Notes under the pieces: model-generated | What the model was told of the DNA's origin: nothing | What the model saw: the letters and a program-made list of their open reading frames with translations, nothing else | Database searches by the model: none | Shown here: positions 727-15,807 of the stretch, piece after piece | How the letters are laid out: every line of letters begins with the position of its first letter | Position numbering within the stretch: the stretch's first letter is position 1 | Position numbers and translations under genes: made by a program | NCBI GenBank assembly: GCA_948442015.1 | Contig: CAOJRP010000016.1 | Coordinates: 1-34,404 of the forward strand | DNA length: 34,404 nucleotides | Reading direction: 5' to 3' | DNA from: an uncultured Erysipelotrichaceae bacterium | GTDB lineage: Bacteria; Bacillota_I; Bacilli_A; RF39; UBA660

Positions 727-762
727 ATTTTTTCCTCCTTTTTAACTATTTGATTAATTAAC

Positions 763-792
763 GGCAAAAACGGGATTAATCCTATTTCTGCC
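763..792. repeat. Imperfect palindrome upstream of the WYL regulator
   Basis: The arms GGCA-AAA-GGATT and AATCC-TTT-TGCC match around the centre GGATTAATCC, with interruptions at symmetric positions. There is no T-run next to it on either side, so it does not look like an intrinsic terminator. Its place just upstream of the regulator's Shine-Dalgarno suggests an operator or an mRNA hairpin. This is inferred. Confidence 0.45.
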
Positions 793-811
793 AGAAAATA
801 TAATCTCACTA

Positions 812-1408
812 TTACAAATATTTTCCAAGCCTCATCATTAAATCAGATTCTAAAAAATCACTCCATTCTTCATCTTCTTTTTCCATTTCTTTTTCTCTCA
901 TTTCTTCATATTCTTCATTTGTCATAAAAATTATTGGAAAATCGTTCTTTTCTTTTTGTCCATTCCACATAAAATGAATATTATCACTAGAAGTAAATCC
1001 TAAACTTCTTAAATATCTATTTTTTCTATAATAACAAGTAAGAAATACATCTCTATTTTCATTAGATGCAATTTTTAGAGCAATTAATGTTAATAATTTA
1101 CCATAACCTTTACTTCTTTCTTCTTTTTTTACAGCAATATGACCTAAATACATGTTGCTATAAGATATATAACAAGATAAATAACCAATACAAATATTAT
1201 TTTTTTCTAAAACTAAAACTGCTTCAGTTTTACATTCTCCATTAATTATCTTTCTAATAATTTCTTCAAATTGATAAGCACTAGGTCTTAAAGAGCTTGT
1301 TTCAAAATCACAATTAAAACTATTTTCATCAAAATATTTTAGAACATAGAGAATATCTTTTTCTTCGATAGTTCTTACAATTACATTATTCTTTTCATAT
1401 AAGACCAT
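812..1408 (-). CDS. GNAT family N-acetyltransferase
   Basis: Probable acetyl-CoA-dependent N-acetyltransferase of unknown substrate. The core shows the central beta strand YLGHIAVKKEERSKGYGKLL, which is GNAT motif A with the Q/RxxGxG pyrophosphate loop written here as RSKGYG. It is followed by a helix and the CYYRKNRYLRSLGF segment of motif B. The C-terminus (from about residue 165) is very acidic and charged (EEMREKEMEKEDEEW) and is probably a tail outside the fold. The ATG at 1408 has a GGAGGT site 6 bases upstream. It lies 45 bases downstream of the NUDIX gene on the same strand and is likely co-transcribed with it. Confidence 0.85.
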   Translation of the reverse strand: MVLYEKNNVIVRTIEEKDILYVLKYFDENSFNCDFETSSLRPSAYQFEEIIRKIINGECKTEAVLVLEKNNICIGYLSCYISYSNMYLGHIAVKKEERSKGYGKLLTLIALKIASNENRDVFLTCYYRKNRYLRSLGFTSSDNIHFMWNGQKEKNDFPIIFMTNEEYEEMREKEMEKEDEEWSDFLESDLMMRLGKYL

Positions 1409-1453
1409 AAAATACCTCCATTAAATAATAAAATGTATTATAAAAAAATAAAA

Positions 1454-1921
1454 CTAAGATGTCAAACCACTTAGTTTCTCTTCTAATTTATTTAAAAAAT
1501 AAACTTGATTCTTTAATATTTTTTCTTTAGCAATATTTATATCTATCCATTCTACTTTGTCAATCTCTTTAAATTCTTTTATTATTCCACTACCTTTTGG
1601 CCACTCCAATGTAAAAGTATTACTTGTTGTTTTATTAGTATCATAGTCACTTTGTGAATAAAATATAATTATTATCTTATTATTGGGAACTTTTTTACTA
1701 CTTAAATAATTTAAATCTTCTGGAGCCATTAAACCTGTTTCTTCCATAAACTCTCTTTTAGCAGCATTGATACATGTTTCATTTTTAAATTCCCCTTTTG
1801 GAATAGACCAACTACCATTTAAGACATCTTGCCAATAAGGACCACCCATATGACCTAGTAAAACTTTAATAGTATTATCTTCAATTTTATAAACTAAAAT
1901 TCCAGCACTTCTTTTTATCAT
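1454..1921 (-). CDS. NUDIX hydrolase (COG4119-like)
   Basis: Predicted cytoplasmic NUDIX pyrophosphohydrolase of 155 residues. The N-terminus KRSAGILVYK, the following GHMGGPYW and SWSIPKGEF are characteristic of the COG4119 group of predicted NTP pyrophosphohydrolases. The Nudix box reads GEFKNE-x7-REFMEETGL. The REFMEETG metal-binding helix is intact, but the loop between the first Gly and the first Glu is one residue shorter than the GX5E consensus. The ATG at 1921 is preceded by GGTGATTGA. It begins 15 bases after the diguanylate cyclase gene stops, so the two are probably one transcript. The substrate cannot be told from sequence. Confidence 0.9.
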   Translation of the reverse strand: MIKRSAGILVYKIEDNTIKVLLGHMGGPYWQDVLNGSWSIPKGEFKNETCINAAKREFMEETGLMAPEDLNYLSSKKVPNNKIIIIFYSQSDYDTNKTTSNTFTLEWPKGSGIIKEFKEIDKVEWIDINIAKEKILKNQVYFLNKLEEKLSGLTS

Positions 1922-6292: not shown

Positions 6293-7846
6293 TTATATAT
6301 TCCCATATTCACTAACTTTATCTAAATTATTTTCTCTTTCATTGATAATTAAGCTAGTTGTTGTAATAAGCATACTAGCAATGGAACAAGCATTAATTAA
6401 AGAATAAGTAATTACTGATAATGAATCAATTACATTTGTACTTTTGATTTCTTCATATTTTTGACTATGAATATTATAAACTAATTCATAGTTTTTTTCG
6501 GCAATATTTTTCTTTATAATACTTATATCTTCTCCTGAATTTTCCATTATTTGAAGAAAAGGTTTTTGTAATGCAACTTTAAATATTTTAGCGGCTATAC
6601 TATCATTATTTATAGTACTTGCAATTTTTAGAAAAGTTATACCACTACCAGGTAAAACTCCATCTTTAGCACTAAAAGTAGCACAAATGGCATCATCTAA
6701 ACGCATTCTTTTTTCGTGTAATTCTATTTTGGTAGGTGAACCAATAACTAGTTCAATAATTCCTTTTTTAAACATAGCTATTCTTTTTAAATAAAATTCT
6801 TTTTCATAGCTATCATTTATTCTTTTCTCTTCTTTTTTGATATTATCAATATGAGTTTTTATTTTTTTATTATAATCAAAATCAATTCTTGTTGTATCTT
6901 TTTCAATATAAATATTTTTGGCAAAACCTAAATCATTAAGAGATATATTTTTTAAATCTCGTACAATTTTACTATTTGTAATAATCTCTAAATCATTAAC
7001 AATATCATTTTTTTTAAGTCCATATTCGCTTACTTTTAAAAGAATTATATTTAATCCTTCATTGAGATTTAAAGATAAGACATCATTGATAAATTCAACT
7101 CCATAATCATTAGCAAATATAACAAGATTACTATTCTTTTCCATGATAAAATTAAGAACATTACCAATCTCGTTTATATCGATTAAATCGTTATTATAGA
7201 TTAATACATAGCTATCTTTCAAAGTTATATCATTATTGTTTTTAAAGAAATAGGGTGAAGCTACCGAAGTATCTAAATAATATCCTTTTAAAAGTTTATA
7301 TCTTAAAGTATTTTCTTCTACTTCTTTAATGACAATACTATTTTTATTTTCGACATACTTATAAATATCACTTACTAAAGAGCCAATTTCATTATCATTA
7401 GCTGAAATACAAGCTATTTTCTTTAAAGTATCTTTTGAAGGTTTTATTTTATAATTATTTAATTCTCTTAAAATTTCTTGTAAAATACTCTCTAATTCTT
7501 TCTTCAATATAATCGGATTTTCGCCTTTTTTAATATACTCCATACTAGAATTATAAATACTTTGTAGTAACACTAAAGTAGTTGTCGTTCCATCTCCTAC
7601 AACTTCATTAGTTTTGATAGATGCCTCTTTAGCAATTTCTAAAATTGTATTAATTGTTTCATCATCACTTTCGATATTTTGGGCAATTGTAACACCATCA
7701 TTAGTTATAAAAGGTGTAAAACTTGAGTGGTCAATAATGATATTATTACCCTTAGGACCCAAAGTCTTTTTGACTGTATCACAAAGTAGGTTAATTGCTT
7801 CGCTCATTTTTTCTTCTAATTTTTTTCCGCTTATTACTTTTCTCAT
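6293..7846 (-). CDS. Divergent GroEL-like (Hsp60) chaperonin
   Basis: A 517-residue group I chaperonin homologue. ATPase features are kept: TLGPKG at 28-33, ITNDG at 47-51, GDGTTT at 84-89 (Asp85 aligning with E. coli Asp87), the catalytic Asp of RLDDA at 385 (E. coli Asp398), and Asp474 of VIDS (E. coli Asp495). The hinge Gly-Gly-Gly is reduced to PGSG at 399-402. The apical domain (about 185-365) is very diverged, and the C-terminal Gly-Gly-Met tail is missing. No groES is adjacent. The ATG overlaps the stop of the DUF4130 gene (ATGA), so it is translationally coupled to the radical SAM/DUF4130 pair. It may be the cell's general chaperonin that has drifted, or a specialised copy for its operon partners. 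The sequence alone cannot decide. Confidence 0.9.
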   Translation of the reverse strand: MRKVISGKKLEEKMSEAINLLCDTVKKTLGPKGNNIIIDHSSFTPFITNDGVTIAQNIESDDETINTILEIAKEASIKTNEVVGDGTTTTLVLLQSIYNSSMEYIKKGENPIILKKELESILQEILRELNNYKIKPSKDTLKKIACISANDNEIGSLVSDIYKYVENKNSIVIKEVEENTLRYKLLKGYYLDTSVASPYFFKNNNDITLKDSYVLIYNNDLIDINEIGNVLNFIMEKNSNLVIFANDYGVEFINDVLSLNLNEGLNIILLKVSEYGLKKNDIVNDLEIITNSKIVRDLKNISLNDLGFAKNIYIEKDTTRIDFDYNKKIKTHIDNIKKEEKRINDSYEKEFYLKRIAMFKKGIIELVIGSPTKIELHEKRMRLDDAICATFSAKDGVLPGSGITFLKIASTINNDSIAAKIFKVALQKPFLQIMENSGEDISIIKKNIAEKNYELVYNIHSQKYEEIKSTNVIDSLSVITYSLINACSIASMLITTTSLIINERENNLDKVSEYGNI

Positions 7847-9995: not shown

Positions 9996-10535
9996 ATGTT
10001 GAAAGGGATAGTATATCATGGGAGCATGGAAGATAATATAGAAATTTTAACTCCTCAAATAGGAACTCATCGAAAAAAATGTGTCTATGCGACTAGAAAT
10101 AAATGTGTTTCTTTGTTATTTGCGAATCGTGGCAACAAAGATTTAGATACGATGATTGGAACTATTAATGGTAAACTTATTGTTGTTGAAAGAAGAGAAG
10201 GAGTTTTAAAAGAATTATATGACCATAAAGGATATATTTATGTGCTTGATGATAAGACTTTTTCGCATTATAAATACTTATGGAGTAAAGAATTAATATC
10301 TTTTTCTTCTGTAAAAGTAAAAAATAAAATAGAAGTTCCTAATATTTTAAAGAAGTTAGAAAATGAAGAAGTTAAAAAGCATATTAAAATCTATCGTTAT
10401 CCTGATAGACCATCTAGTGTTCCTCTTGATAATAGTGATTTAATAACAAAGTACAAAATATTTGAAGAAAGAGGCCTTAAAGGCTCAATAGATAAATTGT
10501 TAAGTGTTTATCCAGAATTTAAAGATAGATTATAG
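9996..10535 (+). CDS. Unknown 179-residue protein with YHGS...YAT motifs
   Basis: A soluble protein I cannot assign firmly. The N-terminus IVYHGSMEDNIEILTP followed by CVYATRNKCVSLLFA resembles the first strands of ADP-ribosyltransferase-like folds (YHGS ... VYAT ... A-xx-FA). A catalytic Glu cannot be placed with confidence, so this is only a fold-level suggestion. The rest includes GYIYVLDDKTF, a helical stretch and IYRYPDRPSSVPLDNSDLI, which look like strongly conserved family segments. The ATG has a purine-rich AAAGGAGAAG upstream. It is followed at 45 bases by the frameshifted gene on the same strand, with a TATAAT between them. Confidence 0.65.
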   Translation: MLKGIVYHGSMEDNIEILTPQIGTHRKKCVYATRNKCVSLLFANRGNKDLDTMIGTINGKLIVVERREGVLKELYDHKGYIYVLDDKTFSHYKYLWSKELISFSSVKVKNKIEVPNILKKLENEEVKKHIKIYRYPDRPSSVPLDNSDLITKYKIFEERGLKGSIDKLLSVYPEFKDRL

Positions 10536-10579
10536 TTTAATACCATAAAATATAGTATAATATTTTAAAGGTGGTCGTT

Positions 10580-11052
10580 ATGGGAAATAAAAATATTGCA
10601 ATTATTAATGACAAAAAAAAGAGAAGAAAACTCTTGCCGAAATATTAGGAATGATATCTAATGATAAAAATAGTATTTTAACGGAAGAAGAGGTTATAAG
10701 ACTTGCAGAAATAGGAAATCTTATTAGCCGAGAAAAAAAGATTTCCTTATCCTTTGAAGGATTAAAAACTTTTTTATTAAAAGCCATGAATTATAATGGT
10801 TTTCAATTAGAAGAAGATGAAGAAACACGTTTTAAAGAATTTTTAAGTGTTGTTACTGATGAAGAGATTTTAGCATTATATGATACCTTAGAAAACTATG
10901 ATGCAAAAAATCTAGCAAGTGTTAGTAGCTTTATTGAAAAAAGTGATATAACTAGAACTTTTGGTATGCAACTTAATGAGCAAGGGAATGGTATTTTACC
11001 TACAATTACCGAAGAAAGTCGTAAAAAAGTAGCAAAGAGTTTAATAAGATAA
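10580..11052 (+). CDS. Unknown protein requiring a -1 frameshift
   Basis: Translation should start at the ATG at 10580, which has AGGTGG upstream. That frame stops after 22 codons at 10646-10648. Shifting to the -1 frame at the A AAA AAG heptamer (10615-10621) joins the first 14 residues to the long downstream frame and gives a continuous 157-residue protein (...NDKKK-EKKTLAEILG-MIS...). The ATG at 10651 has no well-spaced ribosome site of its own, but it lies two bases after the TAG stop, so reinitiation is possible. The product is helical and acidic, of unknown function (RLAEIGNLISREKK, then FIEKSDITRTFGMQL). The alternatives are a homopolymer error in the A8 run, a true frameshift mutation, or programmed slippage. 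Confidence 0.6.
10615..10621 (+). other. A AAA AAG slippery heptamer
   Basis: Within an A8 run, the heptamer sits in the correct phase (A_AAA_AAG in the frame of the 10580 start) for tandem -1 slippage, the same heptamer used in E. coli dnaX. A weak 5-bp hairpin, AAGAG/CTCTT (10619-10623 with 10631-10635), overlaps it. No strong downstream pseudoknot or upstream Shine-Dalgarno-like stimulator is evident. Confidence 0.5.
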
Positions 11053-11053
11053 A

Positions 11054-12433
11054 TTAATTATTAAAAAAATTTGCCCAAGCATCTTTTTTCTTAAGTCTTT
11101 CTTGCACATTTTTTATGGTAATACTTTGTGGTTTAATTAAATCTAACTCTTTCCATGAAATAGGACAAGACACAGGAGCATTGTCTTTTAGCCTTATCGA
11201 ATAAGGGCAGACACTAGTTGCTCCTTTTTTATTGCGAAAATAATCAATAAATATTTTGCCCTCTCTTTTTTCTTTACGCATATTAGTTGTGTATTTGGAA
11301 GGGTTATTGCTAACCATTAATTCGGATATATCACTTGCAATCTTTTCTGTTTTATCCCACGAAGTTGTTTTAAGCGGCACAAAAACGTGATAACCTTTAC
11401 CACCACTAGTTTTTAGGTAAGCTTTTAATTTTAATTTATCTAAAACTTTTTTTAAATCTTTTACCCCATCTCGCAATTTTTTTAGACTTAATTTTTCATC
11501 AGGGTCAAAGTCAAAAACTAGTAAATCAGGTTTATTAGAACTATTCTGTTTACAACCCCAAATATGGAATTCATAACTATTCATTTGTACTTCCTCGATT
11601 AAACCTGTTGCATTTTTAATATAGTAATAATCTTTACTTTGATTTTCCTTATCTTTGACTAACTTTTTCCCAATATTTTTACTATCAGTATTTAAATGTT
11701 TCATATAAAAGACTTCACCATTAATTCCATCTGGGCACCTAATTGTACTAATTAAGCGATTCTCTAAAAAAGGAAACATTCTTTTCGCAACTAATTTATA
11801 ATAGTTTATAATATTTTCTTTTGTAATCTTACCCTTAGGAATAATTACTTTGTTAGGATGAGTTATTTCGATATCATCTAAATCTTCTTTTTTTTCATTA
11901 TTGCTTATCTCATCCATTGTTCTGTCTGTTTTAATACTTGTTTTAAACTTTGTAATTTTGACGTTACTTACAAACTCATCTTTTTCTTTAATCAGCAACC
12001 AATTATCATCTTTAAACTTAACTAATGTATAATCGCCTTTAATTCTTTCACCATTAATAGAAAACTTAATTGGACCTTTTTTAAAATCGGGTTTAAAATG
12101 TGGTTCCCAAGTTCCTTTATCCCATAACATTACTGTTCCGCCACCATATTCACCTTTAGGGATTGTTCCTTCAAAATTTCCATAACTTAAAGGATGGTCT
12201 TCAACTTTGACGGCTAGTCTTTTATCTTTTGGGTTAAATGATGGACCTTTAGGGACAGCAAAACTTATAAAAACACCATTGTATTCTAGTCTTAAATCGT
12301 AGTGTTCTCTTCTAGCCATATGATGTTGAATAATATATTTCAGTTTTTTACTCTTTCCACTATTTTTATTTCCATAAGGTTCTTTTGTTTTCTTAAAATC
12401 TCTTTTTTTATTATATTCTTTTAAATCACTCAT
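11054..12433 (-). CDS. ligD: LigD-type 3'-phosphoesterase/polymerase fusion
   Basis: Two of the three LigD domains joined in one protein, for end processing and fill-in during bacterial non-homologous end joining. Residues about 30-170 are the 3'-phosphoesterase (HHMARREHYDLRLEYNG with the His, His, Asp, Arg metal residues, then VEDHPLSYGNFEGTIPKGEY). Residues about 195-455 are the archaeo-eukaryotic primase-type polymerase, with the catalytic DFDPDE, KTSGGKGYHV and the later FIDYFRNKKGATSVCPYS segment. The ligase domain is absent and encoded by the gene just upstream. The ATG at 12433 is placed five bases after GAGGTGA, which itself contains the ligase stop codon; the in-frame GTG at 12442 is less likely. 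It ends one base from the convergent frameshifted gene. Confidence 0.93.
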   Translation of the reverse strand: MSDLKEYNKKRDFKKTKEPYGNKNSGKSKKLKYIIQHHMARREHYDLRLEYNGVFISFAVPKGPSFNPKDKRLAVKVEDHPLSYGNFEGTIPKGEYGGGTVMLWDKGTWEPHFKPDFKKGPIKFSINGERIKGDYTLVKFKDDNWLLIKEKDEFVSNVKITKFKTSIKTDRTMDEISNNEKKEDLDDIEITHPNKVIIPKGKITKENIINYYKLVAKRMFPFLENRLISTIRCPDGINGEVFYMKHLNTDSKNIGKKLVKDKENQSKDYYYIKNATGLIEEVQMNSYEFHIWGCKQNSSNKPDLLVFDFDPDEKLSLKKLRDGVKDLKKVLDKLKLKAYLKTSGGKGYHVFVPLKTTSWDKTEKIASDISELMVSNNPSKYTTNMRKEKREGKIFIDYFRNKKGATSVCPYSIRLKDNAPVSCPISWKELDLIKPQSITIKNVQERLKKKDAWANFFNN

Positions 12434-12438
12434 CTTCT

Positions 12439-13329
12439 TCACCTCAAACTATAATTTTTAAAGATAGGATGTCTTAAATGACCACTTTTAGTTCTTTCCA
12501 AATATTCCACAAAACAAGTAAGAGAAGGCTTAACATAATTAGCTTCTTCTTCTAAGTTGCAAAAACCATTTTTCTCTTTTTTCATTTTTATTAATTTTAA
12601 AGCAATGTCTTGTCTTTTCCCAACACTTACTTTTCCGACGTAATAAAGTTTATTATCTTTATATTCTCCTAAAAGAATAGATAGTGTATTTTCTTTTTCA
12701 ATATATCCTCCAATATAAAATTCATCTCGATTGTTATTTTTTATTTTAATAAACTCATCAGTTCTCGAATTAATGTAATAAAGTCCTTTCTTTTTCTTCG
12801 CCACAATTCCTTCTAAGTTAAGTTTCTTTATCTCTTTAAAAAGGTTAATGCCTTTATTTTCAATGACTTTTGACTTAACAAAATATTCTGTATCTTGATA
12901 TTTATTTAAATGTTTTTTTCTTTCTTCTAATGGAAGTTCTGTTAAATCTTTATTTTCATATAAAATATCAAAAGCCATAAAAGTAACTGGATTATTGTGT
13001 TTTGCTAAATCAATAGAAGTTTTCTTTTTTAAATGACTTCTTTGTTGTAACTTAGCAAAAGAGGGAACTCCTTCATCGGCTAAAATAATTTCCCCATCAA
13101 AAATGACATTATCTTTAACAAGCTTTTTAATACTTTGTAATTCGGGATATAAATAAGTGATATCATGAATATTCCGACTTTGGATTTTTACCTCTTTCGG
13201 ACTTGCAAAAATTAATGCCCTAAAACCATCAAATTTTACTTCAAAAAAATAATCATCACTATCAAAAGGCTTTCTAATTTCTTCTAAAAGCATTGGTTTA
13301 AAATCTCTATTGTTCCACAAATTTTTCAT
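12439..13329 (-). CDS. ligD: Stand-alone LigD-type ATP-dependent DNA ligase
   Basis: A 296-residue ATP-dependent ligase matching the ligase module of LigD. The adenylation motif is EVKFDGFRA (Lys in KxDG near residue 29). Further nucleotidyltransferase motifs are DGEIILAD, FMAFDILY, LEGIVAKKK and the final FIKIKNNNRDEF. A short OB-fold follows (FYIGGYIEKENTLSILLGEY). It should seal breaks held by Ku. It overlaps the Ku gene by 4 bases and ends inside the ribosome site of the phosphoesterase-polymerase gene, so the three are translationally linked. In the better known systems this domain is fused to the polymerase. Confidence 0.94.
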   Translation of the reverse strand: MKNLWNNRDFKPMLLEEIRKPFDSDDYFFEVKFDGFRALIFASPKEVKIQSRNIHDITYLYPELQSIKKLVKDNVIFDGEIILADEGVPSFAKLQQRSHLKKKTSIDLAKHNNPVTFMAFDILYENKDLTELPLEERKKHLNKYQDTEYFVKSKVIENKGINLFKEIKKLNLEGIVAKKKKGLYYINSRTDEFIKIKNNNRDEFYIGGYIEKENTLSILLGEYKDNKLYYVGKVSVGKRQDIALKLIKMKKEKNGFCNLEEEANYVKPSLTCFVEYLERTKSGHLRHPIFKNYSLR

Positions 13330-14072
13330 TTTTTCTTTAAACTCTTTTCTAAAGCAACCATTAAATCAGTAATTTGCTTTTTACTCTTCTTCTTACTTTT
13401 CGTAATTTTTTTACCATCAATTTTATCATCAATCGCCTTTTTGATATTATCTTGATATTCATCTTTGTATTTTTCGGGCTCAAATTTTCCTTTTAAATTG
13501 TCAATTAATTTGATTGCCATGTTAAGTTCTTCTTCGCTGGTATTTGCTTTACTAGTGGAATTACTAATAAATATTTCTTCTTCAAAATAAAGGGTAGTCA
13601 TAATAATTTTAGCTTCAAAAAATCGTAGAATACAATAATAAAACTTTGTTCCAATTACTGTTTTAGCAACAGCTACTAACTTACTTTCCTTTAATGCCTC
13701 ACAAAATAAATTATAAGCTTTACCTTTCCCTTCAGTTTCTAAAATATAACTTTTTTCAAAATACATTGGGTCGACTTCACTCATTGGTACAAAAGAGACA
13801 ATCTCAATTTCTTTGTCTTGTTCAGGTTTTAACTTGTTTAACTCCTCTTTAGTAAAAGTTATATACTTATCATCTTCATATTCATATCCTTTAATGATAT
13901 CTTTTTCTTTTAAATTAACTTTACAATGAGGACAATACTTGACATAACTTATTCTTTCTTGACACTTAGTATGCAACTGATTAAAAGAAGTATCATTATT
14001 TCTAATAATAGTGTTCATAATTATGGGAATATTAACTAAACCAAAAGAAATACTACTATGTATATTGGGCAT
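13326..14072 (-). CDS. ku: Ku DNA end-binding protein
   Basis: Bacterial Ku homodimer subunit that binds broken DNA ends and recruits the LigD proteins. The family signature SISFGLVNIPI is at the N-terminus. There follows a Cys-containing loop (CQERISYVKYCPHC) that could bind zinc, as in several Bacillota Ku proteins, then GYEYEDDKYITFTKEEL and the core FVPMSEVDPMYFEKSYIL. The C-terminus is Lys-rich (KKITKSKKKSKKQ), which usually contacts DNA or ligase. The ATG at 14072 has AGGTGA six bases ahead; the GTG at 14081 is not used. It is the first NHEJ gene of the operon and overlaps the ligase gene by 4 bases. Confidence 0.95.
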   Translation of the reverse strand: MPNIHSSISFGLVNIPIIMNTIIRNNDTSFNQLHTKCQERISYVKYCPHCKVNLKEKDIIKGYEYEDDKYITFTKEELNKLKPEQDKEIEIVSFVPMSEVDPMYFEKSYILETEGKGKAYNLFCEALKESKLVAVAKTVIGTKFYYCILRFFEAKIIMTTLYFEEEIFISNSTSKANTSEEELNMAIKLIDNLKGKFEPEKYKDEYQDNIKKAIDDKIDGKKITKSKKKSKKQITDLMVALEKSLKKK

Positions 14073-14133
14073 TTTAATCACCTAATAGTAGTATTTTCTA
14101 AAAATTAAAATTTTATGTAATAACTATATATCT

Positions 14134-14811: not shown

Positions 14812-15777
14812 TTATTCTGCTTTATCTTTATAAGACTCTAAATTTATATTCCATTTTGGTGGATAAAAATAATCAATCTTACCTTTTTGGATATATTTTT
14901 TCTTTATCTTTGTTCTATTACTTTTTAAATCAGGATATTTAGCACGACAATATTTATCAATTTCACAAAATAAATTTTGACAATCTATATATTGCAATTT
15001 TCTTGTTCCTAATTTTTTAAAGTCAAGACCAAGTCTTTTAAATTCTTCCTCTTGGTGTTCATACATCCACTTTATAACTTCTTCTTTACTCATTTCACCA
15101 ATATCATAAAAACATTTTTTTATACCTCTTATAGAACCTGGTCCAACGACAGTAAATTCTGTTTCAGTAAAATTTGTAACTTCACTATAATTAATATCTG
15201 TAATTAATTGATAAGCCATAAAATTTCCAATTAAGGGATATGCTTTTAAATGGTGAAAGGCTTCTTCCATACTTTTAGAATTTATAATTTTTTCTGGTAA
15301 ATTATCTTCAATAAACATTTTGTGTAATAATGCCAGGTGATTTTCATGTTTTTTATCAAAGCCAAAAGCTTTAGTAGGGCAAGAAATATATGCATCATTA
15401 TATATTTTAATATTATTAAGAGTTGCTTTTTCTAATATTTTTTGACATTTATTAAAATCAAAATTATGAAGTTTTATATCACCCATTTTAGATACTAACA
15501 ATTCCCAAGTACTTTCTTTATTAAATATTTTAAATAGAATGATTCTAAATATCATATCTTCATCGCTATACTTATGACCATTGTAAATTACATTTTTTAT
15601 TAAATATTGAGAAACTCTATCACTCGCTCGATAAGCATTACAGAATTTATATTCTTGTAAAATGGGGTCATCTGTCCACGGTTCTTTCTTTCCATTTAAT
15701 TTATTATAAAATATGTTTTGTCTTTCAAAAGCAAAATACCAATATAAATCATAAACTTCTTGCCTTATTTTTAACAT
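14812..15777 (-). CDS. Putative DNA base hypermodification protein (HMUDK_hel family)
   Basis: A 321-residue protein that matches the helical domain of predicted 5-hydroxymethyl-dU DNA kinases and alpha-glutamyl/putrescinyl-thymine enzymes of phages (HMUDK_hel, PF18723). The family hallmarks run through it: FAFERQNIFYNKL with EPWTDDPILQEYKFCNAYR and ASDRVSQYLI, then LFKIFNKESTW, YPLIGNFMAYQLITDINYS, FTVVGPGSIRGIKKCF and the closing LQYIDCQNLFCEIDKY with YFYPPKW. No separate P-loop kinase domain is present. The ATG at 15777 has AAGGTGG close by. Phage members act in thymine hypermodification; what a chromosomal member does is not established to my knowledge. Its place beside the Ku/LigD operon suggests DNA repair or defence, which is inference. 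Confidence 0.8.
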   Translation of the reverse strand: MLKIRQEVYDLYWYFAFERQNIFYNKLNGKKEPWTDDPILQEYKFCNAYRASDRVSQYLIKNVIYNGHKYSDEDMIFRIILFKIFNKESTWELLVSKMGDIKLHNFDFNKCQKILEKATLNNIKIYNDAYISCPTKAFGFDKKHENHLALLHKMFIEDNLPEKIINSKSMEEAFHHLKAYPLIGNFMAYQLITDINYSEVTNFTETEFTVVGPGSIRGIKKCFYDIGEMSKEEVIKWMYEHQEEEFKRLGLDFKKLGTRKLQYIDCQNLFCEIDKYCRAKYPDLKSNRTKIKKKYIQKGKIDYFYPPKWNINLESYKDKAE

Positions 15778-15807
15778 ATATCCACCTTCTTTTACCAATT
15801 TAAATAT

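Follow-up and report, generated by a model that had tools for sequence, protein, structure and literature searches.

The window analysed here, a stretch of 34,404 nucleotides from a 1.5-Mb draft genome assembled in 48 contigs (G000), carries between 10580 and 11052 a small gene whose reading frame breaks shortly after its start. An ATG at 10580-10582, directly behind the ribosome-binding site AAAGGTGG, opens a frame that terminates after 22 residues at a TAG (10646-10648). A second frame, one base back from the first, stays open for 146 codons from 10612 to a stop ending at 11052, and is homologous to an intact protein in the single other genome of the same genus that was examined (G001); the break is therefore present in the assembly. 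The sequence-only reading had described one split gene, with a well-initiated first frame and a -1 frame running on to a product of 157 residues, and on all of these points it holds, with 14 codons before the switch and 143 after it making up the frame-restored protein. The features of the locus, with the basis for each in brackets, are as follows.

10566 to 10579, forward strand: leader with the ribosome-binding site AAAGGTGG (sequence; the aligned G001 leader is nearly identical)
10580 to 10648, forward strand: initiated frame, 22 codons and TAG (frame translation)
10612 to 11052, forward strand: long open frame with homology to the G001 protein of 158 aa (frame translation, homology)
10613 to 10620, forward strand: run of eight A, with an in-phase A AAA AAG at 10615-10621 (sequence; register of homology to G001)
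10651 to 11052, forward strand: 133-aa ORF from an in-frame ATG, a possible reinitiation product (ORF listing; Met also in G001)
10930 to 11049, forward strand: conserved C-terminal tail, common to G001, G159 and G264 (tail comparison and search)

The open frame and the register of homology confine the break to 10612 through about 10633; the A8 run falls inside these limits and is its likeliest site. As had been noted from the letters, a dnaX-type heptamer lies inside the run in the correct phase: A AAA AAG has the X XXY YYZ form in the phase of the zero frame and falls where the two frames overlap. Equally, the TAG does stand two bases ahead of an ATG of the long frame, at 10651, which is the first ATG of that frame.

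Orthologue, distant homologues and the encoded protein

In the congener G001 the orthologue reads through as one frame of 158 aa, begins at the same start codon and lies between the same two neighbouring loci, and the leader upstream of the gene aligns nearly identically between the two genomes. The G001 stretch matching the A8 run is an A-run interrupted by G and so differs in composition, which means that the congener attests the intact frame and not the ancestral run length. G001 also has a methionine (M26) at the position of ATG 10651, so this start codon did not arise with the break. Within a close-range comparison that comprises this one congener, and hence two genomes, the break appears to be private to the window's genome.

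More distant homologues were sparse. A family-wide search matched 7 of 291 genomes, including the window's own and G001: the match to G159 covers nearly the full length and its frame is uninterrupted, G264 has only the C-terminal tail in common, within an uninterrupted ORF of 79 aa, and in G035 and G117 it is the central part that matches, again in uninterrupted ORFs; a match in G156 (E 1.5e-4, within a 1153-aa frame) was dropped as likely chance. A search across the class gave matches in 4 of 395 genomes, own genome included, and added G129, where an uninterrupted ORF begins with a similar MENKNI; going by this start, the part before residue 26 appears to be partly conserved rather than wholly unconserved. 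Here, too, one match, in G383 (E 8.3e-4, within a 726-aa frame), was dropped as likely chance, and a search with the tail only matched 5 of 282 genomes, the fifth of which (G277) was weak and is not credited. Whether the break is conserved across relatives was a matter that the sequence-only reading had left to an alignment, and it is not: the gene is one frame in G001, and all five credited homologues beyond it (G159, G264, G117, G035 and G129) are uninterrupted.

The gene is lineage-specific and fast-evolving and encodes a small protein. The best weak family match, to ribosome recycling factor, was rejected as falling below cutoff (Pfam E 0.0039 and score 17.5 against a cutoff of 29.7 for the window protein; E 0.017 for the G001 protein; NCBIfam scores of 16.2 and 17 against a cutoff of 149.1). 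Neither PHROGs nor PADLOC returned anything useful for this protein, no match was found in phage and plasmid collections or among viral contigs, and the best hit of a PDB profile search, a fragment of a Mediator subunit (E 0.0054), was not credited. An AlphaFold2 model of the G001 orthologue, built from two sequences and with a mean pLDDT of 59.2, assigns residues 1-17 a pLDDT below 50 and predicts, at low confidence overall, a helical region at about residues 19-108; our guess is that the product is a small, mostly helical cytoplasmic protein. The window's long frame and the G001 protein are 73% identical, and dN/dS between the two genomes is 0.35, where seven neighbours have 0.07-0.21; evolution is thus faster here than in the surrounding genes. 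Changes polarised with an outgroup fell 10 on the G000 branch and 8 on the G001 branch; in these small numbers no relaxation or decay since the break is visible on the G000 branch, and the long frame may therefore still be in use.

Frame breaks, A-runs and heptamers across the genome

Genome-wide counts of A-runs and ORFs were taken from samples of both genomes (stretches L011-L110), that of G000 amounting to 814 kb with 24.2% G+C. The G000 sample holds 173 A-runs of at least eight, 99 of them with a homologous stretch in the G001 sample. When a run was scored as open if it lay in an ORF of 80 aa or more on the strand concerned, 52 of the 99 paired runs were open in both genomes, one, that of the gene described here, was open in G001 only, and 46 were uninformative; 52 of the 53 runs lying in a G001 ORF were thus also within an open G000 ORF, with this gene as the sole exception. 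The corresponding counts for A-runs of at least seven were 315 and 6, of 516. In the reverse direction they were 68 and 2, of 114, for runs of at least eight (68 of 70 informative runs open in both); of the two exceptions, one is an artefact at the edge of the stretch retrieved and the other lies in a gene broken at several points. With 52 of 53 informative G000 runs open in both genomes, the idea that homopolymers are widely damaged, or the assembly systematically wrong, was rejected. As only this gene fails the paired test, its break is an isolated event, which a single mutation and a single sequence error fit equally.

A paired scan of whole genes, which cannot register a break within roughly the first 15 codons and passed over this gene, turned up 4 breaks, plus 15 alignments containing in-frame stops, among 325 G001 ORFs matched in G000, and 4 breaks and 28 such alignments among 328 G000 ORFs matched in G001. 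It probably overstates the damage, because several of these stops fall right where the match begins, and the start codon chosen there may be too early.

The heptamer was counted in the same samples. The 682 ORFs of G000 that reach 100 aa contain 139 in-phase copies of A AAA AAG, and 944 ORFs of G001 contain 178; with so many copies, and with 87 A-runs of exactly eight in the G000 sample, its presence alone is unremarkable. A-runs of at least eight fall within the first 60 nt of ORFs more often than expected (15 versus 6.1 in G000; 25 versus 10.9 in G001), and those of at least seven are enriched there about twofold (96 versus 43.8 and 132 versus 67.6, respectively).

Origin of the frame break

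The headline of the sequence-only reading was a dnaX-type programmed -1 ribosomal frameshift, which would make the 157-residue protein in a regulated ratio. In its favour are the in-phase A AAA AAG inside A8 and the fact that the homologous frame is the -1 frame, and it is mildly favoured by the scarcity, in intact ORFs, of the heptamer in phase at the 3' end of an A-run of at least eight (4 of 92 runs in G000; 9 of 168 in G001). Sites of the dnaX type typically lie late in a long gene, however, whereas this heptamer lies near the start of its gene, and beyond the heptamer itself the likeness ends: the break is absent from the congener and the five other homologues, RNA structure downstream does not exceed that of shuffled sequence (z -0.69 over 100 nt and z -0.29 over 46 nt, for folds without pseudoknots), and no Shine-Dalgarno-like stimulator lies 6-17 nt upstream of the heptamer among the motifs GAGG, GGAG, AGGA, GGNGG and AGGKG, sought by the criteria set out in PMC4066793. 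Even the best motifs of this class shift at only about 0.3% in E. coli when unstimulated, by the figures given there. We consider a programmed frameshift highly improbable; what stands of the earlier reading is the split gene, together with reinitiation and sequence error, which it had named as alternatives. The caution to be drawn is that A AAA AAG in phase turns up too often in a genome of 24% G+C to be taken as a sign of recoding, and that a slip or an error is the better reading of a break that the nearest relative lacks. It is also very unlikely that the break is kept on purpose, with slippage at A8 setting the amount and the nearby ATG the N-terminus, so that one gene would give products of 157 and 133 residues; if it were true that strains of the species keep the break, it would be a small case of homopolymer-tuned expression.

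A variable A-run, either a phase-variable poly(A) tract or a site of slippage, is unlikely as well. The run falls in the first 14 codons, a placement like that described for inlA (PMC2831843), poly(A) runs in AT-rich genomes are known to give transcriptional slippage (PMC5009743, PMC5574713, PMC1088944), and in some AT-rich endosymbionts it is described as restoring frames (PMC5009743). The gene shares with those cases an AT-rich genome and a poly(A) run at the frame break, but its run of eight is short, run avoidance typically becoming evident at nine (PMC1088944); moreover, a transcriptome-wide survey of Buchnera, as summarised in PMC5574713, reports no frame-restoring transcription error, the run of the congener is interrupted by G, and A-runs near gene starts are common in this genome. 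More serious, though doubtful, is an error of sequencing or assembly at the homopolymer, in which case the living organism has one uninterrupted gene. The window belongs to a single draft genome, the break is a lone one and the only congener is intact; the long frame shows no visible decay, its dN/dS of 0.35 going with balanced changes on the two branches; and a large survey, in its general treatment of lone breaks with intact homologues, regards them as mostly sequencing errors (PMC3711429). Against such an error, the other 52 informative A-runs of at least eight lie in open frames, and homopolymers are therefore not a general problem of the assembly. The break is of an ordinary kind either way, be it an error in the sequence or a real mutation, fixed or switching.

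On balance, we think it probable that the gene has undergone a private, unprogrammed one-base slip in the length of its A-run, and that its 133-residue core is probably still made by reinitiation. A true one-base change of the poly(A) tract near the gene start, rather than an error in the sequence, would cause the initiated frame to stop after 22 codons, and the break would fall in a weakly conserved N-terminus that is predicted to be poorly ordered. Termination at the TAG followed by reinitiation at ATG 10651 would then probably yield the core protein, and the full-length product would arise only in trace, from unstimulated ribosomal or transcriptional slippage. The 133-aa product is plausible because its ATG follows the stop by two bases, a gap at which, for the three E. 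coli gene pairs described in PMC10666635, reinitiation was cut by only 5, 20 and 70%; it would plausibly keep most of the predicted helical region as well as the conserved tail. The proximity of stop and start is that of termination-reinitiation (translational coupling), but the arrangement departs from the usual one in lying inside one gene, not between two, and in a second ATG with no Shine-Dalgarno motif at a workable distance before it. As a whole, the picture has its closest precedent in the 5' poly(A) tract of Listeria inlA, where, in the isolates described in PMC2831843, an A7/A6 change leads to a stop after residue 8 and other isolates carry a G-interrupted run. Both cases combine a poly(A) run in the first codons, a one-base change in its length, probable here, an early stop and relatives with a G-interrupted run in frame; unlike inlA, the gene described here encodes an uncharacterised small protein, has an in-frame methionine two bases past the stop, and is represented by one genome of its species.

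Neighbouring genes in the window and at a homologue locus

In G264 (L008) the 79-aa protein that shares the tail (1489-1728, reverse strand) is encoded directly upstream of a gene (736-1485, reverse strand) whose product we take to be a Fic protein, from a motif recognised by eye. A Fic-antitoxin role for the small protein was dropped, since the Fic-like protein presumably carries its own inhibitory motif and no Fic-like neighbour occurs in the stretches listed for the other homologue loci.

Upstream of the split gene, a 179-aa gene (9996-10535) is intact in the window; in G001 (L002, about 1060-1380) it has ACG in place of the ATG and lacks its middle part, so that within the genus this locus is in the course of losing genes. 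Downstream, 11054-14081 holds a non-homologous end-joining set spread over three genes, encoding Ku, an ATP-dependent DNA ligase and a fusion of LigD phosphoesterase and primase-polymerase, in a small genome of 24% G+C. Further along, 14812-15798 strongly matches the helical domain of 5-hmdU DNA kinase (PF18723, E 1.2e-105), here on a bacterial contig. At 6293-7846 lies a Cpn60-type chaperonin gene (PF00118), 93% identical to the G001 copy and possibly a divergent extra copy.
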